A program made the translations under genes and the position numbers. From the NCBI GenBank assembly GCA_027459705.1, contig DAIDHM010000222.1, positions 1 to 43,889 of the forward strand: a DNA stretch of 43,889 nucleotides, given 5' to 3'. Position 1 is the first letter of the stretch. Each line of letters starts with the position of its first letter. Below, piece by piece: positions 36,572 through 43,716 of this stretch. Origin of the DNA: Ktedonobacteria bacterium (GTDB taxonomy: Bacteria > Chloroflexota > Ktedonobacteria > Ktedonobacterales > JACDGC01). The notes below the pieces were generated by a model. That model saw only the letters and a list, made by a program, of their open reading frames with translations, did no database searches and was not told the origin of the DNA.

Positions 36572-36642
36572 GGTCTCACAATTGGGCGAGGTCTGGGGCA
36601 TCCCGGCCAGCATAAGCAACCAGAGTTGTGGGAGGAAGCAAT

Positions 36643-38985
36643 ATGCCATCCTGGCGTCTTGGTCGAAGGCGGACTATGATGATCGCACTGACGGGGATGG
36701 TGGTGCTGATCGCGCTCGCCATCGCCCTGATTCCACGCCAACCGGCTTCTGTGATTGCTCCCGAGTCCGTCGGTCCCGCCACCGACGGCCCGGGAGCGAC
36801 CTCCTATAACGATCTGGGGCGGAAGGATTGCCTGGGCACTGCCGCCACGCGGGCCTCCAAAGTCTGGTTTACGGTCGCGGGCGGCGTCCTCAGCGATGTC
36901 TACTATCCGACGATCGATAATACCAATGTAAAAACTCTGCGCTTCATCGTGACGGATGGCAAGACCTTCACCGATCTGCAGGGTCGTGATACGACCTATA
37001 CGGTCAGCAATCCTGATGGGCAAGCCCTGGATTGCCAGGTGGTGACGACCGCCAAGAGCGGCGATTATCGCTTGACCGTCGATTATAGTGTGGACCCCGG
37101 CAACGATGTGATCCTGATGCGTGTGCATTTCACGGCGCTGCGTGGTTCTATCGCGAACTATAAGCTCTATGTGCGGTTCCATCCACTGATCAATGGCAAT
37201 GGTGGCGGCGGATCTACGAATATCGGCGGTGATACCGGGATCATTGATGGGTCAACCGGTCACGCCATTCCCGTTGCCTTTGATACGCATACCCAATCAC
37301 TGGCGACTAATCGTACGTATGCCACACCCGTCTTTAGTGCGTTGGACGCCACCAGTCCTCTGGGCGCGGTGACCAATGGGTTCGCGGGCATGCCCAGCGA
37401 TGGGTTAGCCCAGATCACCGCGCACCACCAGGTCACCAAACTCTATGCCACCGCTGTCAATGGTGACATCACGCAGACCGCGGCGATCGCGCCCACTGCC
37501 AGTGGGCAATTCACCCTGGCCCTCGGATTTGGTGAGACCCAGACGGCTGCGGTCACTGCGACGTCCAGCGCGCTGGCAGTCGATTACACCACGCTGCAGC
37601 AACAGTATAATGACGGTTGGCATGCGTACGACAGCACGCTTCGCGCGCCGCCTCCAACGTTTGCCGGAGTCTCCGCCAGCGAGTGGCAGACACTGGTCAA
37701 TCAATACTATTACAGCGCAAATGTCCTGAAAGCGTCAGAAGATAAGACCTTTCCTGGCGCCATCGTCGCCAGCCTCGCCGCGCCCTGGGGCCAGTCGGTC
37801 CCCGCCAACGACCAGGCGGATAGCTTCTTTGGATCATATCGCGAAGTCTTTGCTCGCGATCTATATGAAGCCTGGACGGGCTTTTATACGGATGGCGATC
37901 TCCAGACGGCGCGCGACGCGGTCCTCTTCCTCTTCGACGCCCAGCAGCAGCCCGGCGGGCCAATGCCGCGCAATAGCCTCCTGAATGGCCTGGCGGCGCC
38001 GGACACGGGCGGCGAACAACTCGACGAGACCAGCTACCCCATCCTGATGGCTGATCAGATGGGCATGACCGACGCGGGATTCTATCAAGTACATATCAAA
38101 CCCGCTGCAGACTTCCTGGTCCGCAATGGCCCGGCTTCCGGGGTGGAACGCTGGGAGGAACAGAACGGGTATTCGCCCTCGACCATTGCCGCCGAGATCG
38201 CTGGACTGGTCGCCGCCGCGGATATCGCGCGCATCAATGGCGACACTGCCAGCGCCCAGACGTACCTGGCTACCGCCGACGCCTTCCAACGCGGTGTCAA
38301 AGGGTGGACAGTGACGACCACTGGCCCACTCGCCGCACATCCCTACTTCATTCGCGTCTCCAAGACGGGTGACCCCAACCTGCTGTATGCTTATGATCTC
38401 GGCAATGGCGGCCTGACCCAAGATCAGCGGGCGGTGGTCGATGCTGGTTTTCTGGAACTGGTCCGGCTCGGCGAGTTTCCCGCCAATGATCCAGATATCA
38501 TACAGTCGCTGCCTGTCATCGACCAGCATCTCGAAATCATGACCCCAAGTGGCCCCGGCTGGCTGCGCTATAATGGCGATGGGTATGGCGATTCTACTGC
38601 AACTGGCGCGCCATGGGCGCCCACGGGTACTGGCACCGGCCATGTCTGGCCCGCTCTCACGGCGGAGCGCGGCGAATATGACCTGGCCGCGGGCGATCCT
38701 GCCACGGCCATCACGTTGCTGATGACGATGAAAAACTTCGCGTCTGGCGTCGGTCTCATACCTGAACAGGACTGGGATGCCCCAAATTTCCCCGCTTCGC
38801 CGTACATTGCGAATCCTATGATCGCGTCCATTGGTTTCCATGATGGTCAACCCGCCGGATCTGCGGCGCCTTTGACCTGGGCTATGGGGGCGTATGTGCG
38901 CTTGATGGCGGACACGTTCAGTGGAAAATTGCTGGAACAGCCAGCCATTGTCTATGACCGCTATGTCGCGGGCAGACAGGGCTAA
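36643..38985 (+). CDS. GH15 glucodextranase/glucoamylase-like exported enzyme
   Basis: A 780-residue glycoside hydrolase. A basic N-terminus (PSWRLGRRRT) and a hydrophobic helix at about 12-32 indicate export or a membrane anchor. The N-terminal beta-rich domain (about 45-320, LGRKDCLGTAATRASKVWFTVAGG onward) resembles the glucodextranase N-domain. The (alpha/alpha)6 catalytic domain (about 340-770) has the acid Glu in WEEQNGYSPS (Glu505/506) and the base Glu in ALTAERGEY (Glu675). The enzyme should release glucose from alpha-glucans such as dextran or starch. ATG 36643 has GGGAGGAAG just upstream. No sugar transporter is adjacent. Confidence 0.93.
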   Translation: MPSWRLGRRRTMMIALTGMVVLIALAIALIPRQPASVIAPESVGPATDGPGATSYNDLGRKDCLGTAATRASKVWFTVAGGVLSDVYYPTIDNTNVKTLRFIVTDGKTFTDLQGRDTTYTVSNPDGQALDCQVVTTAKSGDYRLTVDYSVDPGNDVILMRVHFTALRGSIANYKLYVRFHPLINGNGGGGSTNIGGDTGIIDGSTGHAIPVAFDTHTQSLATNRTYATPVFSALDATSPLGAVTNGFAGMPSDGLAQITAHHQVTKLYATAVNGDITQTAAIAPTASGQFTLALGFGETQTAAVTATSSALAVDYTTLQQQYNDGWHAYDSTLRAPPPTFAGVSASEWQTLVNQYYYSANVLKASEDKTFPGAIVASLAAPWGQSVPANDQADSFFGSYREVFARDLYEAWTGFYTDGDLQTARDAVLFLFDAQQQPGGPMPRNSLLNGLAAPDTGGEQLDETSYPILMADQMGMTDAGFYQVHIKPAADFLVRNGPASGVERWEEQNGYSPSTIAAEIAGLVAAADIARINGDTASAQTYLATADAFQRGVKGWTVTTTGPLAAHPYFIRVSKTGDPNLLYAYDLGNGGLTQDQRAVVDAGFLELVRLGEFPANDPDIIQSLPVIDQHLEIMTPSGPGWLRYNGDGYGDSTATGAPWAPTGTGTGHVWPALTAERGEYDLAAGDPATAITLLMTMKNFASGVGLIPEQDWDAPNFPASPYIANPMIASIGFHDGQPAGSAAPLTWAMGAYVRLMADTFSGKLLEQPAIVYDRYVAGRQG

Positions 38986-39256: not shown

Positions 39257-40201
39257 ATGCACCCTCATCCCGCCACCATCCACGTTGCCCGTGCCCAGCA
39301 CCATTTGCGCTGGGACAACAGCATCCCGCCAATCCACCACGTCGCTTCGGGCGCGGTCATCGAATTTGACTTGCTGGACGCCGCCAATGGCCAGATTGGC
39401 CCCGATGCGACCGTCGCCGCGATCGAGACGCTAGATTTCGGCCAGGTGGATCAGGTGAACGGGCCAATCTTTGTCACGGGCGCGGAACCCGGCGACACGC
39501 TGCAGATCGATCTGTTGGATCTGCAGCCTGCCGACTGGGGGTGGACGGCGATCATCCCGGGTTTCGGGCTGCTGGCCGATGAGTTCACCACCCCAGCGTT
39601 GAAGATCTGGCGGTTATCCAATGGCTGGGCAGACTTCGCCCCTGGCATTCGCATTCCGCTGGCGCCATTTTGTGGAGAAATTGGTCTGGCTCCCGGCGCT
39701 GCTGGCGCGCTCTCGACGATCCCACCTTACCGTCATGGGGGCAATATGGATACCAAGCATCTGACCAGTGGTGCCACGCTCTACCTGCCCGTCGAAGCGC
39801 CGGGCGCGCTCTTTTCGTTGGGCGATGGCCACGCCGCGCAGGGTGACGGCGAGGTATGTGGCACGGCAATTGAAACGCCGATGCGCGCTACGGTCCGCCT
39901 CACAGTCCGCAAAGATCTGTCGATCAATGCGCCGCAGTTTCAGACAGGTGGTCCGCTGACGCCACATACGAACACCGCGCCGTATTATGCGACGGACGGC
40001 ATCGGCCCCGATCTGCTGGAGGCGGCGCGCGATGCTATCCGGCATATGATCACCCACCTGCAGCGCGCCTATGGCCTCAGTCGCGCGGACGCTTATATGC
40101 TCTGCAGCGTCGCGGTGGATCTGAAACTTGCCGAGGTGGTAGATGCTCCGAACTGGGTGGTCAGCGCATTTCTGCCACTGAGCATCTTCGGCGAGCGGTG
40201 A
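39257..40201 (+). CDS. Acetamidase/formamidase family protein
   Basis: A 314-residue amidase of the FmdA/AmdA family, which hydrolyses short amides to carboxylate and ammonia. Characteristic segments are WDNSIPPIHHVASGAVIEFD, VTGAEPGDTLQIDLLDL, PLAPFCGEIGLAP, PPYRHGGNMDTKHL, the LGDGHAAQGDGEVCGTAIE block and the terminal ADAYMLCSVAVDL. Length is normal. AAAGGA lies about 9 bp upstream of the ATG. It could supply nitrogen from formamide or acetamide, but substrate cannot be fixed. It is convergent with the flagellin gene, with 157 bp between stops. Confidence 0.93.
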   Translation: MHPHPATIHVARAQHHLRWDNSIPPIHHVASGAVIEFDLLDAANGQIGPDATVAAIETLDFGQVDQVNGPIFVTGAEPGDTLQIDLLDLQPADWGWTAIIPGFGLLADEFTTPALKIWRLSNGWADFAPGIRIPLAPFCGEIGLAPGAAGALSTIPPYRHGGNMDTKHLTSGATLYLPVEAPGALFSLGDGHAAQGDGEVCGTAIETPMRATVRLTVRKDLSINAPQFQTGGPLTPHTNTAPYYATDGIGPDLLEAARDAIRHMITHLQRAYGLSRADAYMLCSVAVDLKLAEVVDAPNWVVSAFLPLSIFGER

Positions 40202-40358: not shown

Positions 40359-43300
40359 TTATTGCAGCAACTTCAGCACCATCTGAGGCATCTGGTTGGC
40401 CTGCGCCAGGACGGAGATACCAGCCTGCATCAGGATGGAGTTTTTGGTCATATTGACCGTCTCCGCCGCGACATCGACATTCATGATGCGCGATTGTGCC
40501 GCTGCCAGGTTCTGCGACCCGACCTGTAAGTTCGAGATCGTATCTTGCAGGCGGTTCTGGATGGCGCCCAGCGCCGCGCGTTGCAGCGAGACGGTGTTGA
40601 TCGCGGTATCGATCGTCGTGATCGCTTTCTGCGCGTTGGCCTGGCTCGTCACATCCAGCCCGGCGTAAGCGACCGCATTGGTGACGATGGTATCGTTCGA
40701 CCCCATGACCGCCGCCGCTGAGCCCTGGCTGGTGATCGTCGTGGCGCCGCTGCCAACGCTGCCGGCGGAACCGTAAGCGCCGAAGTTGGCGTTCATCGTC
40801 ATCGTCCCCGCGCCGAGCAGCGCCGAGGTCTGACCATTGACCAGCATCGCCGATCCACCCAGGTTATGGCTGACGTTCGTGCTATCTGTATACTGCAATT
40901 GCAGCAGGTTCGTGCCCGTGCCGCCATTGGCCGAGGAAGCCGTCGCGACGAAGTTGAACAAATCGCCGACAGCGGCCTGGTTCTGGTTGGCCTGCGCCGG
41001 ATCCGCGGTGAACGTCAGCCCATTGCCGATGTTAAACGTGGTCTGGGTATAGGCCGAGCCAGGCGTCGTGTTGGCATTGATCGTGGAGCCATAGGTCTGG
41101 CCGCCATTGGTCGAGACCTGGACGCCCGTCACATTGCCATACGTATCAACCGTCGCCACTTTGATCTGGTACTGCTGGTTCGACGTGCCAGTATAGGTGC
41201 CACTGACCGCCGCCTGTTCCGCGCCGAGGTTGGTCGAGGCGGTGACGTTGTTGGGCGTAACCATCGTCGGGCTGAGGTTAATGCCCATCGTGTCTTTGTT
41301 CGTGGCCGCCGAAGCCGCGCCCGTGGTCATGTTGCTCAGGCTAACGGTATAGGTCGAGAGCACATTATCCCCGGCACTGAACGTCGTGCCACCCGCCGCG
41401 TTGTCATAAATCGAGACCTGGGCGGTTGCCGCATTGGTCGACGAGTTGACATTGACGTTGGCGAGCACGATGTTATAGGTCTTGCCGTCGACACCCGTCA
41501 CCTGGATCGCCGCGTTTCCGGTGATATTGCCATTCGTCAGGGTGTTACTCGAGGTCGACAACTGTACGGAGTTGGTATTGCTTGGCGCCGTCTGTGTGCC
41601 CAGGCCATTATAGCCCAGATCCAGATACACGGATGCACCCGAAGAGGCCTGCGACAATTGTAGCAACACCGAACCAGAGCCGAGACCAACCAGCGATTGC
41701 CCGGATGACAACCCACCAGTCATCGCAGACTGGCTCGCGGCTTCATACGTCGCCGATCCCCCCATGGTCACCGCCGCAGTAGCGCCACTGGTGGTGCCAA
41801 AAGACGTCGCGGCAGTGCCAGAGAGAGCCGCGCTCTGACCCTGGGTCGCGGGAGTCAGGTTGCTCGTAACAGCGTAATACCCGGTGCCAGCCGCGCCGAT
41901 ACCGGTGGCAGCCGCGCTGACGGAGAGCGTCAAGCCCATGACTGTCAGTGTTTTTGCCGTGTTGTTGATCACATACTGACTTGAATCAAGCGTCACGCCT
42001 CCGATTTTGACACCCGTGACGGTTGTGGTCGTGATGCCTGCAGCAGTGGTCAATGCACTGGCGACGTTCAGGGAGATGGCGCCTGCCAAAGAGCCGGTGT
42101 AGGTACCAGAGACGGAGAAGCTACTGGTATCGGCTGGAGTCGTGGTATCTTTGACACCTTGCAGGCCAATATTGGTGCTGGTGCCCGCCGCACCGGTGCT
42201 GTTCGTGCCACTCGTCGCCTGGAAACCGAAGATGTCGCCGATGGCAGGGGCGACCATATTGGTGGGCGCCGGGAAATTCAGCGTCAATCCACTATCGGTA
42301 CTCGAGCCAGCGCCGGTCGAGGCCTGGTTGACTTTGAAAGAATAGGTGCCATTGGCTAACAAAGTCGCGGTGCCATTGGCCCATGAATTCCCACCATCGG
42401 TCGAGTACTGGATCTGGTTGATCTGGTTGGGGTTGTTCGAGCTGATGCCGGTGACCTTGATGAGGTAATTCGTCGGAGTGGATGACGTGCCCACAAAGGC
42501 ACCCGCGACATTCAGCTGCTCGTTGCCGGTGTTCTGTCCGGCCGTTACCGCCGTCGTTCCCGTCGTATTCGCGACTGAGGTGAACGTAAAGGCCGCGCCG
42601 GTCAGTACATTGGACGCGAAGGTGTTGCTCGTCGTGGTGTTCGAGGTTGCCAGGGTGAACTGGTCACCAATCTGGGGGCCAACGGCACCATTGGTAAAGG
42701 AGGTCAGTAAAGTTCCGGTCGTCGTCCCGGCGTGGGTCGCATCATTAAACGTGACGCCGCCGATCGAGAACTGGTACGTGCCATTCGACTGCTGCACACC
42801 ATTGATGGTTGTCCAGGCAGTCGAAGAACCCACCTGAGCTTGAATCTGAGTGATCTGTTTGCCATCAGCGCTCAACCCGGTGACACGCGCGTTAATCGCG
42901 GTGGTCACGTTGAGGGTGTCGCCAGTGACTGCCGAGGCAATGGTTGACGCACCTGAGACACTGCCAGTGCTGGCGGAAGAGAGCGTTTCAGTGCCAATAT
43001 TCGTCCCCTGGCTGGAGCCGGTGGAATTAACGCCAACCGCATTGGCCAGCGATCCAGCGGCGAGCTGGGTCGAATTCACAGTATAGTTGACCCCATTGGT
43101 GTAGCCGCTGCCCACCGCGCTGAGGCTCTGGATGTTGGCATTATTCTTGGTGGCGCTGACACTGGCGCCATTGCCGGCGACACCCAGCGTGGAGGCATCC
43201 ATCGCGCTGATCGAGAAGCTCATGTTCTCGCCCGCGTTGGCGCCAATCTGCAGGGTCTGGCCCGCGAAGCCACCGGCCAGCAGGTTCTTGGTATTGAAGG

Positions 43301-43691
43301 TCGTCGTGTTAGAGATACGCGAAAGCTCCGAGGCAAGTTGATTGATCTCGGACTGAATGGCGACGCGGTCGGTCTGGGTGTTCGTATCGTTGGACGACTG
43401 CACCGCCAGTTGGCGCATGCGCTGCAAGATCGACTGGGTCTGCTGCAGTGCGCCTTCCGCGGTCTGGACGAGCGATATGCCGTCCTGCGCGTTCTGTACG
43501 GCCTGGTTCAGACCGTTGACCTGGGCGTTCAGCTTCTGGCCAATCGCCAGACCGGCGGCGTCATCGGCGGCGCTATTGATGCGCAAGCCTGACGAGAGCC
43601 GTTGGAAGGTTGTCGACTGAGCCGTCGACGTTGCCATCAAGTTGCGCTCGGCATTGAGGGCATTGATGTTGGTGTTGATGTAGAATCCCAT
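40359..43691 (-). CDS. fliC: Giant flagellin
   Basis: An 1110-residue flagellin, more than twice the usual size. The conserved N-terminal D0/D1 (residues 1-150: GFYINTNINALNAERNL, QRLSSGLRINSAADDAAGLAI) and C-terminal D1/D0 (about 1010-1110: LQRAALGAIQNRLQDTISNL, SRIMNVDVAAET, SVLAQANQMPQMVLKLLQ) polymerise into the filament core. About 860 residues between them are Ser/Thr/Gly/Asn-rich and would be surface-exposed. Three diverged copies of a module ending in GDxFxF or GDQFTL occur near 42890-42645, 42460-42217 and 41160-40945. GAGGAGG lies upstream of the ATG at about 14 bp spacing. No other flagellar gene is present in the window. Confidence 0.95.
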   Translation of the reverse strand: MGFYINTNINALNAERNLMATSTAQSTTFQRLSSGLRINSAADDAAGLAIGQKLNAQVNGLNQAVQNAQDGISLVQTAEGALQQTQSILQRMRQLAVQSSNDTNTQTDRVAIQSEINQLASELSRISNTTTFNTKNLLAGGFAGQTLQIGANAGENMSFSISAMDASTLGVAGNGASVSATKNNANIQSLSAVGSGYTNGVNYTVNSTQLAAGSLANAVGVNSTGSSQGTNIGTETLSSASTGSVSGASTIASAVTGDTLNVTTAINARVTGLSADGKQITQIQAQVGSSTAWTTINGVQQSNGTYQFSIGGVTFNDATHAGTTTGTLLTSFTNGAVGPQIGDQFTLATSNTTTSNTFASNVLTGAAFTFTSVANTTGTTAVTAGQNTGNEQLNVAGAFVGTSSTPTNYLIKVTGISSNNPNQINQIQYSTDGGNSWANGTATLLANGTYSFKVNQASTGAGSSTDSGLTLNFPAPTNMVAPAIGDIFGFQATSGTNSTGAAGTSTNIGLQGVKDTTTPADTSSFSVSGTYTGSLAGAISLNVASALTTAAGITTTTVTGVKIGGVTLDSSQYVINNTAKTLTVMGLTLSVSAAATGIGAAGTGYYAVTSNLTPATQGQSAALSGTAATSFGTTSGATAAVTMGGSATYEAASQSAMTGGLSSGQSLVGLGSGSVLLQLSQASSGASVYLDLGYNGLGTQTAPSNTNSVQLSTSSNTLTNGNITGNAAIQVTGVDGKTYNIVLANVNVNSSTNAATAQVSIYDNAAGGTTFSAGDNVLSTYTVSLSNMTTGAASAATNKDTMGINLSPTMVTPNNVTASTNLGAEQAAVSGTYTGTSNQQYQIKVATVDTYGNVTGVQVSTNGGQTYGSTINANTTPGSAYTQTTFNIGNGLTFTADPAQANQNQAAVGDLFNFVATASSANGGTGTNLLQLQYTDSTNVSHNLGGSAMLVNGQTSALLGAGTMTMNANFGAYGSAGSVGSGATTITSQGSAAAVMGSNDTIVTNAVAYAGLDVTSQANAQKAITTIDTAINTVSLQRAALGAIQNRLQDTISNLQVGSQNLAAAQSRIMNVDVAAETVNMTKNSILMQAGISVLAQANQMPQMVLKLLQ

Positions 43692-43716
43692 TGCCTGTAC
43701 CTGGCCTCCTCTGCCT

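Follow-up and report, generated by a model that had tools for sequence, protein, structure and literature searches.

Giant flagellins are known from Oceanospirillales such as Bermanella marisrubri and Oleibacter marinus, where they form thick filaments; in the part of that study considered here, giant flagellins with internal repeats are already described, and Chloroflexota are absent from the list of phyla encoding them (PMC6248924). The flagellin analyzed in this work belongs to Ktedonobacterales (Chloroflexota) and resembles the Oceanospirillales proteins in exceeding 1000 aa and in combining an ordinary core with a central insert that includes a duplicated region and extra inserts. However, in a comparison by description with the same part of that study, the repeated DE region of the Oceanospirillales proteins matched annotated flagellins only, whereas the module described below also occurs in FlgL and FlgK and, in other Chloroflexota, in FlgE.

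An outer domain common to both junction proteins is represented by D2 of FlgL and FlgK (Xanthomonas FlgL; Burkholderia FlgK, 4UT1), which is a beta-sandwich (PMC6155364). The module is likewise common to the two junction proteins, but it differs from D2 in extending into flagellins, in being repeated, and in having an Asp-box. In the outer-domain sheath flagellins (E. coli H7/H6, Achromobacter, and Sinorhizobium meliloti), the outer domains touch each other and produce a surface layer, a feature common in soil bacteria (PMC8931119). In contrast to these proteins, the module is known here from sequence and models, and it has no sequence match to solved flagellins. A limited literature search did not find a repeated Asp-box module common to flagellin, FlgL, FlgK, and FlgE.

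The giant flagellin gene

The window, by which we mean the whole analyzed stretch of 43,889 nucleotides, is an entire contig (C139) from a 4.6-Mb MAG of 245 contigs. The flagellin of 1110 residues proposed in the sequence-only reading, which named no strand, is encoded by one open frame on the minus strand with the following features:

40359..43691, minus strand: giant flagellin gene, 1110 aa, open frame with ATG start
43705..43712, minus strand: Shine-Dalgarno-like sequence AGAGGAGG, 13 nt upstream of the ATG
43269..43679, minus strand: N-terminal part of the filament core, residues 5-141 (Flagellin_N, PF00669, E 5.5e-44, complete)
40365..40622, minus strand: C-terminal part of the filament core, residues 1024-1109 (Flagellin_C, PF00700, E 1.9e-26, complete)

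The two ends of the filament core, already described as conserved from the letters of the sequence, are thus both complete and above the cut-off, and the 860-aa centre between them has no Pfam match and consists of 44% Ser/Thr/Asn/Gln. At 1110 aa, and 1295 aa in a relative, with expanded central regions, both proteins lie above the 1000 aa by which giant flagellins are recognized. We conclude that the ORF is a genuine, intact giant flagellin of a Ktedonobacterales MAG.

That the gene is an artefact of assembly, or a chimera joining several genes, is very improbable; the sequence-only reading had raised this concern as misassembly. The gene lies 198 nt from the contig end in a MAG of many contigs, which could point to such an error, but the frame is intact, both flagellin ends are present, no tandem DNA repeats were found in the gene, and the 1295-aa relative has three modules of the same type in an independent MAG (L045/L005). 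A large central insert is also characteristic of the flagellinolysins, or proteolytic flagellins (PMC5595980); unlike these, the giant flagellin has no metalloprotease motif. The check for zinc protease motifs revealed no HExxH and just two histidines in 1110 aa, and a protease domain in the centre was rejected on this basis, in agreement with the initial expectation.

Modules and Asp-boxes of the central region

Profile searches resolved the following elements in the centre:

42651..42905, minus strand: diverged module 0, residues about 263-347, ends GDQFTL, no Asp-box
42216..42527, minus strand: module 1, residues 389-492, ends GDIFGF, from profile searches
42381..42404, minus strand: Asp-box STDGGNSW, residues 430-437, fits the published consensus (PMC2716378)
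41910..42125, minus strand: companion beta region, residues 523-594, counterpart of residues 723-790 in the 1295-aa relative
40944..41225, minus strand: module 2 (last), residues 823-916, ends GDLFNF, modelled alone
41091..41114, minus strand: Asp-box STNGGQTY, residues 860-867, fits the same consensus

The first profile was built from ten hand-picked module sequences, and later profiles omitted the proteins under test. The profile from FliC2, FlgL, and FlgK scored 81.5 bits for residues 823-916 and 36.3 bits for residues 389-492; the corresponding scores of the FlgL/FlgK-only profile were 68.7 and 32.6 bits, and flagellin-only profiles matched the FlgL and FlgK modules at 29-60 bits. No profile match was obtained in 500 shuffles of the centre. 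Module 0 reached 17.9 bits with a flagellin profile excluding it and 25.8 bits in the phylum search, and only 9.2 bits with the profile of all collected modules; its 67.6 bits in the own-genome search are not independent, as that profile contained module 0. By these sequence comparisons, the modules at residues 389-492 and 823-916 are certain, and the module at residues 263-347 is probable.

The repeated surface domain of about 860 residues suggested in the sequence-only reading is therefore revised. The modules do repeat, but the centre is not one repeat: the three modules together account for approximately 285 of the 860 central residues, with Ser/Thr/Asn-rich stretches in between, and BLAST of the giant flagellin against itself gave nothing beyond the trivial alignment. 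The three diverged modules ending in GDxFxF were recovered, two of them strongly, whereas module 0 is weak and departs from the motif.

The STDGGNSW and STNGGQTY segments, initially taken as Ig/adhesin-like turns, are present as described but are reassigned to Asp-boxes by their fit to the consensus (S/t)-X-(D/n)-X-G-X-(T/s)-(W/f/y) (PMC2716378). At least two such matches occurred by chance in 17 of 10,000 shuffles of the centre. A full Asp-box is present in 22 of the 32 collected modules, and a few others have a shortened form; the full motif is missing from several modules and is therefore not essential. A sialidase-type beta-propeller was considered and rejected, with one Asp-box per ~95-aa module, a distance of 430 residues between the two boxes, and a single small beta domain in the model. 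The sialidase matches in PDB were also rejected as resting on the Asp-box, the blade spacing being wrong for a propeller.

The module may resemble the Ig-like/jelly-roll domains with a single Asp-box, such as the sulfite oxidase dimerisation domain, the chitobiase C-terminal domain, and the reelin subrepeats, in having one hairpin per beta-sandwich-sized domain and in weak profile matches, whereas the hosts of those domains are unrelated to flagella (PMC2716378). In Pfam, module members gave matches to reelin subrepeat B, the chitobiase C-terminal domain, the Mo-co oxidoreductase dimerisation domain, and bacterial Ig-like; these are low-scoring and all marginal, and were taken as leads. Of the two functions envisaged in the sequence-only reading, the Asp-box identity and these matches would favor stacking over adhesive repeats.

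An adhesive or ligand-binding arm, whose modules would bind carbohydrate or other soil surfaces and whose giant size would aid attachment, is in our judgement unlikely. The Ser/Thr/Asn/Gln content of the centre and the presence of sialidases among Asp-box proteins are in line with such an arm, but in propellers the Asp-box is described as structural, with ligand binding highly unlikely (PMC2716378), and no carbohydrate-binding family matched the module above the cut-off.

The AlphaFold2 model of the full-length protein was poor (mean pLDDT 44.8); the better-predicted blocks of its centre match the positions of the three modules, and the beta strands of module 0 have pLDDT 64-79 across residues about 261-310. 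The last module (823-916) modelled alone, from a 13-row alignment, is predicted to be all beta (pLDDT 88.9, pTM 0.80). The prospect of a disordered centre with no repeated fold, which would have spoken against the earlier reading, thus does not apply to the modules. Foldseek comparison of this single-module model with PDB gave nothing significant (best E 0.87), and neither FlgK nor FlgL was among the matches. The best fold match to a viral model was A0A411CVZ4 (E 0.009, TM 0.69), followed more weakly by Bacillus phage G gp178 (TM 0.51), whose sequence did not significantly match the module profile. The gp178 gene (L082:7643-9382, plus strand) is recorded as a putative head structural protein, and the start of the protein reads as tail-sheath-like. 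The module matched no named family above the cut-off in Pfam, NCBIfam, or PHROGs and has no clear relative in the viral contigs, plasmids, and phages.

Sharing of the module and its possible role

When the own MAG was searched in full, modules were identified in FliC (three), the second flagellin FliC2 (639 aa; two), FlgL (511 aa; two), and FlgK (one), with only two other matches (E 0.3-0.6); the module is absent from FliD and FlgE of this genome. The same module constitutes much of the outer part of FliC2, FlgL, and FlgK and is shared between flagellins and junction proteins. It is a different motif from Flagellin_IN (PF07196), a short motif of hook-associated proteins and flagellins, which was matched in the own-genome FliD and gave no match in the giant flagellin.

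In a search of 400 Chloroflexota genomes, each of the six family members had the module, and five further genomes gave a match. From reading their sequences, two of these five matches are FlgE hook proteins and one is a secreted Ig-like-domain protein; the other two are weak. In a scan of genome contigs, five loci were detected, which belong to three MAG assemblies and apparently all come from this family. FlhA is complete in four family members, so that the export gate exists, and no complete gene was found elsewhere in the order among the sampled genomes. This pattern points to a flagellated family within an order otherwise without complete FlhA in the sampled genomes.

In the two FlgE proteins of other Chloroflexota (L055:814-2376, minus strand; L057:874-2415, plus strand), one module is located in the outer part. 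The secreted protein (L056:1-2913, plus strand), also from other Chloroflexota, has repeated Ig-like domains, a Pro/Thr-rich tail, and one module with STDGGATY. The flagellins of L047/L048 are 45-67% identical to the flagellin of this Ktedonobacterales MAG, and the name in their record title, Proteobacteria bacterium (Centralia_MAG_675), looks wrong.

The occurrence of a related module in a non-flagellar secreted protein is a further point for the adhesive arm, but the module is also found in FlgK and FlgL, which are present in few copies at one junction and would be a poor site for an adhesin. The same patchy occurrence, in FlgE of two other Chloroflexota and one secreted protein, could instead reflect neutral bulk, that is, a beta domain that inserts readily, spreads from one axial gene to another with no matched packing role, and adds size that is tolerated. 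The differing module numbers among relatives, as well as flagellins of the same phylum (G058) in which the module was not seen, agree with this explanation, which we nevertheless hold to be improbable. In the own genome, the module is confined to FliC, FliC2, FlgL, and FlgK, and the identity pattern described next would not be expected for unconstrained bulk unless exchange was recent.

When FlgL is compared with the shorter flagellins, the outer regions share 35-49% identity over about 150-230 aa (up to 130 bits), compared to 28-38% for the N-terminal core (at most 69 bits) and at most 33% for the C-terminal core (21-38% for the cores overall). The giant flagellin and the own-genome FlgL share 38% identity over 119 aa in the outer region and 33-36% in the core. 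The excess of outer over core identity is therefore clear for the shorter flagellins only, and the contrast is small for the giant flagellin. A separate best-pair comparison picks maxima, which we counted against the best explanation. Gene-to-gene exchange or a tighter constraint on the modules could account for the outer-over-core likeness.

In a tree of 29 modules, the last modules of the flagellins and FlgL formed one group against the others (support 92/96); this first/last grouping was set after viewing a first tree, and its support is thus descriptive. The FlgL and FliC groupings were natural before seeing any tree, and trees with all FlgL modules or all FliC modules forced together were rejected (p 0.0049 and 0.0004, respectively).

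We consider it somewhat probable that the outer arm of the giant flagellin is a structural layer of stacking modules that is matched across the hook-filament junction. The protein combines a normal D0/D1 filament core with an outer arm that contains three ~95-residue beta modules, of which two have an Asp-box. These modules would project outward and pack against those of neighboring subunits, and the Asp-box hairpin may brace the contacts between modules. FlgK, FlgL, and the filament would then present matching outer surfaces, with a thick layer that extends from the hook-filament junction over the filament. We infer a mechanical rather than enzymatic role, such as a stiffer or thicker filament for movement in soil films. 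The modules would have been duplicated inside genes and passed or shared between flagellin and junction-protein genes.

Several published observations bear on this structural layer. In FlgK, FlgL, and FliC alike, D2 is exposed on the surface at the junction (PMC12221982). FlgL and FlgK have been proposed to touch each other through quasi-homotypic D2 contacts (PMC6155364), and outer-domain contacts give rise to sheaths on filaments of soil and intestinal bacteria (PMC8931119). Combined with the module sharing, these three studies make a structural coat the likeliest reading. Also counted in favor of this explanation were the dimer of sulfite oxidase and the rod of reelin (PMC2716378).

More tentatively, the Asp-box module might be a common flagellar coat that is copied among flagellin, FlgL, and FlgK genes (elsewhere also hook genes) and held by selection for packing, so that conservation of the outer domain exceeds that of the core between paralogues. 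The outer domains of flagellins are generally viewed as a part of the filament that is free to vary and changes rapidly. The presence of one domain in the filament and both junction proteins provides a testable case for outer-domain spread and junction matching.

Surroundings and upstream sequences

The giant flagellin gene is isolated at the contig end, and its two neighbors are non-flagellar, encoding an acetamidase/formamidase (39257-40201, plus strand) and a glucodextranase-like GH15 protein (36628-38985, plus strand). The sequence GGCAGAGGAGGCCA is also present upstream of both related giant flagellin genes. A simple sigma-28 pattern gave no match upstream of the flagellin genes. Both short-flagellin genes (L046 and L049) have a common stretch like CTCAAGTTT...GTGTTACCCATGACGATAC within approximately 100 nt upstream of the start, which by eye is sigma-28 promoter-like and was not seen upstream of the giant genes. 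In the N-terminal core (43269-43679, minus strand), ILQRMRQLAVQSSNDTN is retained at residues about 88-104, and it is close to the stretch that the animal receptor TLR5 recognizes in other flagellins.
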